Shown here one piece after another: positions 41,944 to 43,430 of a stretch of DNA of 64,000 nucleotides; within the stretch, counting starts at the first letter, position 1, and the number at the start of each line of letters is the position of its first letter. A program made the translations under genes and the position numbers. The notes beneath the pieces were generated by a model. It had not been told where the DNA came from and did not search any database. It worked only from the letters and a program-made list of their open reading frames with translations. Origin of the DNA: Kushneria sinocarnis (GTDB lineage Bacteria > Pseudomonadota > Gammaproteobacteria > Pseudomonadales > Halomonadaceae); NCBI RefSeq assembly GCF_003633775.1, contig NZ_RBIN01000003.1, forward strand, positions 310,001 to 374,000, in the 5' to 3' direction.

Positions 41944-42120
41944 TCAGTCGTCGACTTCGACGATCTGGCGGCCACGATAGTAGCCGTCCGGAGCGACATG
42001 ATGGCGACGGTGGGTCGTACCGGTTTCCCGATCCTGCGCCAGGGTCGGCTTGCGCAGGGCATCATGGGCGCGACGCATGCTACGCTTGGCACGAGACTTA
42101 CGATTCTGTTGGACAGCCAT
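41944..42120 (-). CDS. rpmF: 50S ribosomal protein L32
   Basis: A 58-residue basic protein, [20 protein letters not shown], then a central segment, [20 protein letters not shown] and a closing DD. It matches the E. coli L32 form (no zinc Cys). It lies between yceD and plsX, the conserved yceD-rpmF-plsX arrangement. It is short and easily missed by gene finders with length cut-offs. Confidence 0.97.
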
Positions 42121-42153
42121 GAGGTGTCTCCAGTCAGGGCATCAAATGGGTGA

Positions 42154-42675
42154 TCACTGATTCTTCAGCGAGCGCAGCACACTGAAGGGATTGTCATCAG
42201 CAACCGTTTCTTCGGAATCTTCACCGCTTTGCAGTGCATCACGCGAGACGGGACATTCCGACTCGTCGTGATAAACCACCTGCGGCAGCATGAGGAGCAC
42301 TTCATCCTCGACCACCGGCAGGAGTTCCAGCTGATCGTCTTCCACGATCACCGGCTCGTAGCGGGACGGCAGCGCTGAAGCCAGAGCATCGCTGGTAATC
42401 ATGCCCAGCAGAAAGGAATTCTCCAGTGCCACCGGCATCGGCTGCAGGCAGCGCTGACACGGCATCGCCAGATCCAGCGCCAGCCACCCTTCGATATGGC
42501 GCTGGCCCTGCTGATCGATGTCGAATGCAAGCGTAACCTGGCAGCTGCCTGCCTGGCTGCCGACAGCCTCGACAAGCCGAGGCATGTCCTCAAGCGGCAC
42601 ACTGCCCTCAAGCCGCTCGGCATTGGCTGCCAGCCGCCAGGGCTCGACACTTTTCGGCAATCGCGTGGTTGACAT
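42154..42675 (-). CDS. yceD: 23S rRNA accumulation protein YceD (DUF177)
   Basis: A 173-residue DUF177 protein that in E. coli affects 23S rRNA levels. It begins MSTTRLPKSVEPWRLAA, aligning with the E. coli YceD start, has the Cys pair in MPCQRCLQPMPVALEN, an acidic segment EPVIVEDDQLELLPVVEDE, and ends NPFSVLRSLKNQ. There is no ribosome site before the ATG (the upstream bases read GCGCGCCT), and a near-consensus promoter ends just before it at 42685, suggesting a leaderless or nearly leaderless message. First gene of the yceD-rpmF-plsX-fab string. Confidence 0.92.
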   Translation of the reverse strand: MSTTRLPKSVEPWRLAANAERLEGSVPLEDMPRLVEAVGSQAGSCQVTLAFDIDQQGQRHIEGWLALDLAMPCQRCLQPMPVALENSFLLGMITSDALASALPSRYEPVIVEDDQLELLPVVEDEVLLMLPQVVYHDESECPVSRDALQSGEDSEETVADDNPFSVLRSLKNQ

Positions 42676-42684
42676 AGGCGCGCA

Positions 42685-42713
42685 ATAATAGGGATTGTCG
42701 GGAGTAGTGTCAA
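42685..42713 (-). promoter_or_regulatory. Near-consensus sigma-70 promoter of yceD-rpmF-plsX
   Basis: On the minus strand a perfect TTGACA (42713-42708), exactly 17 bases of spacer, and TATTAT (42690-42685). Transcription would start at about 42678-42679, only 3-4 bases before the yceD ATG at 42675. Confidence 0.75.
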
Positions 42714-42839
42714 AACTGCAGCGTGATCGCGCGGTGCTGCACCAATGACCAGATTTCCACACCGTGGTCGAAAACGCTACTGTCGCCCGCTCGATGACGG
42801 CATCAGTGGCTTCGATATCGTCTTCATCAGGAAACCTCC

Positions 42840-43430
42840 ATGCCCTCTCTTGTTCTGGCATCCGGCTCGCGCTGGCGCCATCAGCTGCTGACCGATCTCG
42901 GTCTGCCCTTCGAGCATGCCAGCCCCGACATTGATGAAACGCCCCATGCCGGCGAACTGCCCCAAGGGCTTGCCGAGCGCCTGGCGCGGCGCAAGGCGGA
43001 GGCGCTCGGCACCCGCTTTGCCGAGCATCTCATCATCGGTTCCGATCAGGTCGCCTGGTTCGATGGCGAGCTGCTGGGCAAGCCGCACACCGAAGCCCGG
43101 GCCCGCGAGCGGCTGGCCCGTTTCTCCGGCCGGCGTGTGCAGTTCTTCACGGGGCTTGCGCTGCTGGATAGCCGTACCGGCCGCTGCCGCACTCACGTCG
43201 AGCCCTTCGATGTGGTCTTTCGCTCTCTGAGCGAACAGGAGATCAACCACTACGTGCGTCGCGATCAGCCGCTCGACAGCGCCGGCGGCTTTCGCATGGA
43301 AGGGCTGGGCATTGCCCTGTTCGAGCGACTGGACGGTCGCGATCCCAACGCCCTGATCGGCCTGCCGATGATTGCCCTGTGCGACATGCTGCGCGACGCC
43401 GGTCTCGACCCGCTGACCGGCGCCGGCTGA
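42840..43430 (+). CDS. yceF: Maf-family nucleoside triphosphate pyrophosphatase (YceF type)
   Basis: House-cleaning NTP pyrophosphatase that, in YceF, prefers 7-methyl-GTP. The 196-residue protein starts MPSLVLASGSRWRHQLLTDL, has LARRKAEAL, IIGSDQVAWFDGELLGKPHT, RVQFFTGLALLDS and ALIGLPMIALC. GSDQVA replaces the GADTVV seen in canonical MafA/B, which points to the YceF branch. It is divergent from yceD (164-base gap) and converges with sppA. Confidence 0.9.
   Translation: MPSLVLASGSRWRHQLLTDLGLPFEHASPDIDETPHAGELPQGLAERLARRKAEALGTRFAEHLIIGSDQVAWFDGELLGKPHTEARARERLARFSGRRVQFFTGLALLDSRTGRCRTHVEPFDVVFRSLSEQEINHYVRRDQPLDSAGGFRMEGLGIALFERLDGRDPNALIGLPMIALCDMLRDAGLDPLTGAG

Follow-up and report, generated by a model that had tools for sequence, protein, structure and literature searches.

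A promoter abutting the yceD start codon in Kushneria sinocarnis, its conservation among Gammaproteobacteria, and a predicted near-leaderless yceD-rpmF mRNA

How is the first gene of an operon expressed when its promoter leaves almost no room for a leader? The question is raised by yceD of Kushneria sinocarnis (DUF177, PF02620; 173 amino acids; positions 42154..42675, minus strand), which lies in the window, the 64,000-nucleotide stretch of DNA analysed here. The original prediction was of a promoter made up of TTGACA, a 17-base spacer and TATTAT, with 9 bases left between it and the yceD ATG, and of a resulting mRNA that is leaderless or nearly so. We found the predicted elements on the minus strand, from 42713 to 42675: the -35 element TTGACA (42708..42713), the 17-base spacer (42691..42707), the -10 element TATTAT (42685..42690), seen both by reading the sequence and by promoter scan, and then TGCGCGCCT (42676..42684) followed directly by the ATG. 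The two hexamers agree with the sigma-70 consensus (TTGACA/TATAAT) at 11 of 12 bases, and the spacer of 17 lies within the allowed 16-18. The nine bases after the -10 element, comprising the discriminator and a predicted very short leader, are GC-rich, as is typical of stringently controlled promoters. A likeness to the genome's own rRNA promoter (TTGACA...TAAAAT-GCTCACTC) was set aside, since the discriminators differ.

A consensus scan of 4 kb found the near-ATG promoter to be the sole promoter-like site on either strand, a count that is not above chance (1 versus a shuffle mean of 0.6, sd 0.8). Because this is too weak a test, whole-genome patterns and comparative tests were used instead.

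Conservation of the promoter-to-ATG distance

We aligned 80 named Halomonadaceae loci, the best 80 of 159 relatives, with Phytohalomonas and Kushneria nearest among the named hits. TTGACA-N17-TAnnnT is present in 79 of them, ending 9 nt before the ATG in 78 and 8 nt before it in one; the remaining locus has CTGACA, with the spacing unchanged. The -35 hexamer is the same in 79 of the 80, and the spacer, more variable in sequence, has a length of 17 in 79 of the 80. Columns -15 to -1 show a mean identity of 98%, versus 51% for columns -70 to -41 (79 loci; L037 was left out because of a one-base gap). Whether relatives keep the promoter-to-ATG distance, which the original prediction had left to comparison, can thus be answered: it is kept in 79 of 80 Halomonadaceae loci, and far beyond the family.

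The arrangement is nearly unique to yceD in Halomonadaceae genomes. Across the 3.5-Mb genome the pattern TTGACA-N16..18-TATNAT-N7..11-ATG matches once, at yceD, and the reversed-pattern control not at all. A strict version with N8..10 gave 40 matches in 41 Halomonadaceae genomes (control, 1), of which 38 carry the yceD motif, one each in 38 genomes; 34 of these 38 coincide in coordinates with the yceD match, and those in G004, G027, G028 and G033 were assigned by the motif alone. The other two strict matches lie at G035:C33:35204-35244 and G024:C13:78713-78753. Three genomes without a strict match (L345, L346 and L347; genera g3 and g22) keep the promoter and GCGCGC; in them 16 nt separate the -10 element from the ATG, 7 more than usual, and no Shine-Dalgarno (SD) sequence is seen by eye. 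A stricter class-wide DNA pattern was found in 7 of 75 genomes, each time at the yceD start, and is too narrow to gauge how common the arrangement is.

That the arrangement might be a peculiarity of Halomonadaceae is ruled out by loci of the order and the class (GTDB Gammaproteobacteria, which include the Betaproteobacteria) and by E. coli K-12: most of these loci share the geometry, as does E. coli. The E. coli sequence reads TTGACT-N17-TAATAT-GCGCGCCCT-ATG, with the same promoter-to-ATG geometry and weaker hexamers than those of Kushneria; by eye, a terminator-like hairpin adjoins its -35 element. The order sample comprised 70 of 140 matching genomes, taken in order of E-value and skipping our own genome and four other Halomonadaceae. 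The class sample comprised 90 of 117 matching genomes, also in order of E-value, skipping our own genome and one member of the order; these 90 loci carry different family labels. Scanning 150 bases upstream of the chosen start, with ATG preferred over GTG/TTG, we found that in 141 of 160 loci (63/70 in the order and 78/90 in the class) the top-scoring promoter ends 7-11 nt upstream of the chosen ATG; in 106 of the 160 the distance is exactly 9 nt. Dinucleotide shuffles gave the 7-11 nt geometry in 70 of 1600. Among 20 further loci (8 hand-picked from the next in the order list, and 12 class loci added by hand from a search of the phylum, one of them also present in the class search) 16 fitted, bringing the running total with the mechanically chosen start to 157 of 180. 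Among the 23 loci outside 7-11 nt, inspection by hand revealed six (L130, L188, L220, L244, L182 and L338) in which an in-frame ATG follows the -10 element at a distance of 9 or 10 nt, and these would raise the total to 163/180.

Since this choice of start favoured an ATG near a fixed place, we also ran a start-free test, which looked within the 330 bases upstream of the YceD domain for a promoter scoring at least 10 and, 7-11 nt beyond that promoter, an in-frame ATG. This test was positive in 142/160 and 18/20 loci, 160 of 180 in all, and negative in 20. Two order-level loci depart from the rule in their own ways. L131 (genome G207) has its near-leaderless ATG opening a five-codon frame, ATG ACA ACC AAC CCG TGA, and the yceD ATG lies 4 nt after the stop of this frame, as if reached by reinitiation. 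L337 (genome G209) keeps the promoter and GCGCGCTT, and the ATG at 10 nt is directly followed by TAG; with its chosen ATG 33 nt after the -10 element, it is a natural loss of the arrangement.

The start-free test was positive in none of 50 loci of the same phylum outside the class (50 of 85 matching genomes, the 30 best by E-value and 20 hand-picked), of which only 15 have a promoter scoring at least 10 at all. Eight outside-class loci (L297, L301, L304, L306, L307, L309, L310 and L312) carry GATAATGCGCGC, as class promoters do, and a leader containing GGAGG then separates it from the ATG; in the six of these that were scanned, the -10 element ends 32 nt before the ATG. The discriminator and the length of the leader are therefore separable. 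As the data are unrooted, the short yceD leader is either an innovation of the class or a feature lost outside it.

Start codon, translation signals and the predicted 5' end

An SD sequence, defined as any of AGGA, GGAG, GAGG or AAGG at -18 to -5 of the start, is absent before the yceD ATG, in agreement with the original prediction. It was found at yceD in none of the 80 Halomonadaceae and in 1 of the 141 order and class loci with a near-ATG promoter. The next gene, rpmF (ribosomal protein L32, PF01783; 58 amino acids; 41944..42120, minus strand), has the SD GGAG at 42128..42131, and rpmF was preceded by an SD in 73/73 Halomonadaceae and 52/52 order and class loci in which it was found (rpmF was located by a simple motif, and was missing in 7/80 and 89/141 loci, many of the latter stretches being too short). 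The 3' end of the genome's 16S rRNA carries GGATCACCTCCTT, a normal anti-SD. Together with the SD at rpmF, this indicates that the SD machinery is present and that yceD does not use an SD in the ordinary place. The start codon is ATG in the window and in 141/141 near-ATG loci, and in 159/160 loci overall, where the selection rule preferred ATG. The base after the ATG (+4) is T in 70% of the 141 class and order loci and in 93% of the 80 Halomonadaceae, and a pyrimidine stands at +5 in 87% of the former, these being raw frequencies. Weak 5' folding, seen in 89% of these 141 yceD genes, is common to many genes and not specific.

Could the start codon itself be misassigned, the true one being an upstream in-frame codon, or a codon further downstream that is preceded by an SD? 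The yceD frame of the window is open for 62 codons upstream, to another ATG (42676-42861, minus strand), so that a frame of 235 amino acids runs from 42861, and only 26/80 Halomonadaceae are without an upstream in-frame start and only 45/80 without an upstream ATG. Against this, no alternative upstream start exists in 94 of the 141 class and order loci, and a stop lies within 20 codons in 104 of them. The N-terminal motif LP..V.P falls, by eye, within about 12 codons of the ATG in most loci listed, and alignment by eye with YceD starts from E. coli and elsewhere (M..LP..V.P) upheld the claim that the ATG is correctly placed. We consider a misassigned start very improbable. The open frame may nevertheless lead gene finders to call the start too far upstream, and is a warning to them.

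Where, then, would transcription start? In the 106 loci with spacing 9, which share the GC-rich discriminator (class consensus TGCGCGCTT), a purine occupies position 6 after the -10 element in 88%, C occupies position 7 in 90%, a pyrimidine position 8 in 99% and T position 9 in 96%. Purines are scarce at positions 7-9 (7%, 1% and 1%), and the A of the ATG stands at position 10. By the rules for sigma-70 start sites, RNA preferably begins at a purine that follows a pyrimidine and lies 6-10 nt from the -10 element. Given the scarcity of purines at positions 7-9, the likely initiators are G6, giving a 4-nt leader, or the A of the ATG, giving none. In the window we thus infer, from base composition in the class and these rules, a start at G42679 or at A42675 of a leaderless ATG (42675..42679, minus strand). 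In E. coli, position 6 is C. Both predicted starts would fall within the definition of leaderless mRNA used for Salmonella, a leader of 0-6 nt and no SD (PMC3293720; here and below, cited reports are drawn on in excerpt). G at position 6 is kept in 18/30 loci with spacing 8 or 10 (listing read by eye), which slightly favours either a start at G6 or a role of this base in the discriminator.

The latter bears on the possibility that the constraint acts at the level of DNA only, the GCGCGC discriminator being kept for sensitivity to ppGpp/DksA or for a regulator, with the ATG merely abutting it and the leader having no role in translation. Retention of G6 is in keeping with this, as are the eight outside-class loci that combine the discriminator with a normal leader, and the three Halomonadaceae genomes, and some others, in which the promoter is kept and the ATG has moved away from it. 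GC-rich discriminators are, moreover, characteristic of stringently controlled promoters. Transcription of fabHDG/plsX is reported to be lowered in the E. coli stringent response (PMC3896788). A constraint on DNA alone leaves unexplained why an ATG lies 7-11 nt from the -10 element in 160/180 class loci, why the bases at -2 and -1 are near-invariant pyrimidines, and why an SD is nearly absent at yceD and present at every rpmF found. We regard it as rather unlikely.

Another possibility is that a second upstream promoter, or read-through, produces a leadered yceD mRNA and that the near-ATG promoter is minor. In E. coli K-12 the annotated small RNA sraB (1146589-1146757; L111:1590-1758) ends 36 bases before yceD, so read-through from this region would be conceivable. 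Two E. coli yceD promoters, yceDp1 and yceDp2, are recorded (PMC13060810). Furthermore, in the excerpted part of PMC4681348, Romero et al. (2014) name just five mRNAs of E. coli (dicA, pgpA, racR, rhlB and ymfK) whose leaders are shorter than 10 nt, and the absence of yceD from that list counts against a near-leaderless mRNA. On the other hand, the 4-kb scan of the window revealed no other promoter on either strand, the near-ATG promoter scores best within 150 bases in 141/160 loci, and even a leadered RNA would be without an SD at yceD. An upstream origin of the yceD mRNA thus appears improbable.

Proposed expression of yceD-rpmF and comparison with known leaderless mRNAs

We favour the reading in which the yceD-rpmF transcript would start at the near-consensus sigma-70 promoter whose GC-rich discriminator adjoins the yceD start codon. 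With the discriminator abutting the start codon, the primary mRNA would be leaderless or carry a leader no longer than about 5 nt, and with a leader of 0 to about 5 nt YceD would be translated by the leaderless route, through recognition of a 5'-terminal AUG, while rpmF, on the same RNA, would be translated from an SD of its own. Purifying selection would hold the promoter-to-ATG distance at 9 nt (at times 8 to 11) in most of the class examined. A leader of 0-5 nt, and old purifying selection on this distance, are very probable. For the full explanation (a near-leaderless yceD-rpmF promoter, leaderless translation of YceD and spacing selected in most of the class examined) we estimate a probability of roughly 75%. 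The leaderless or near-leaderless mRNA of the original prediction is therefore supported in silico by the conserved ATG and spacing, the missing SD at yceD, the SD at rpmF and the lack of another promoter in 4 kb.

The use of such an arrangement would most likely be to provide a modest amount of YceD, an assembly factor, beside abundant L32 from one stringently controlled promoter. Stringent control of the yceD promoter is suggested by its GC-rich discriminator, which lies next to the -10 element as in stringently controlled sigma-70 promoters; at yceD, where the response to ppGpp is a prediction, the discriminator differs in running into the start codon. Deletion of yceD lowers 23S rRNA in E. 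coli, as does mutation of duf177a in plastids (PMC5049393). The proposed low-output leaderless first gene is comparable to acuR, which is leaderless, lies in an operon and is poorly translated (PMC3293720). A more far-reaching proposal is that no leaderless housekeeping gene of Gammaproteobacteria is kept more widely than yceD and that leaderless translation is a conserved control device, with the 50S-assembly factor made only by intact 70S ribosomes at a 5'-terminal AUG and L32 by 30S/SD initiation, so that the YceD:L32 output would track the ribosome pool and ppGpp. This we offer as speculation, and think it doubtful.

Leaderless mRNAs have been described as rare in enterobacteria (PMC9031893). 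Reported counts include 82 leaderless sites in E. coli by Cappable-seq (PMC4782308), 97 transcripts with a 5'-UTR of at most 7 nt in RegulonDB (PMC5230787) and 33 leaderless genes in Salmonella (PMC3293720). They are not rare everywhere in the GTDB class, as 4.67% of primary starts are leaderless in Cupriavidus metallidurans (PMC7563307) and 72 plus 42 leaderless genes are given for Burkholderia cenocepacia (PMC4603805). The named examples from E. coli and its relatives (lambda cI, Tn1721 tetR, pgpA, rhlB, dicA, racR and ymfK) resemble yceD in having the start codon at or near the 5' end, which for yceD is predicted, and no SD. Apart from pgpA and rhlB, they are mostly regulators of prophages or mobile elements, whereas yceD is the first gene before that of L32 and its geometry is conserved across the class. 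The leaderless genes predicted by Zheng et al. (2011; PMC3160421) likewise lack an SD and have a TATA-like box some 10 bp upstream of the start codon. That study, as excerpted, gives whole-genome fractions and, of 239 gammaproteobacterial genomes, assigns leaderless genes to only 15, mainly from Xanthomonadales and Legionellales; COG1399 has no occurrence in its main text. The E. coli yceD-rpmF operon (Tanaka et al. 1989, as cited in PMC13060810 and PMC5049393) has the gene order and promoter-to-ATG geometry of Kushneria, and differs in its weaker hexamers and in the sraB RNA gene just upstream.

The literature searched, which covered neither supplementary tables nor subscription papers, yielded no description of yceD as leaderless or of its promoter-to-ATG spacing as conserved. 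yceD would thus add to the known leaderless mRNAs, and the depth of its conservation is unusual. If true, a housekeeping start codon locked to its promoter through most of a class would be a native and genetically easy system for studying what leaderless initiation is for, its geometry being shared by E. coli K-12. Should the E. coli promoter turn out to be weak or not in use, there would be less reason to propose a class-wide function, and the sequence fact would stand. At this locus a promoter element and a start codon evolve as one unit.

The flanks of yceD-rpmF bear on the extent of the transcript. Downstream lies plsX (PF02504; 40882..41922, minus strand, with a GTG start as listed mechanically), which may share the yceD-rpmF transcript. 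The two E. coli sources, as excerpted, disagree, plsX being placed in the same transcript as yceD by PMC3896788, and PMC5049393 stating that an operon joining yceD and plsX has not been found. Upstream, a divergent maf-like gene (PF02545; 42840..43430, plus strand) lies outside the operon. In the yceD-maf intergenic region of Halomonadaceae, groups of species share TTGTAACC-like or (C)TGTACAG motifs about 10-25 bases upstream of the -35 element, which perhaps belong to the divergent maf promoter.
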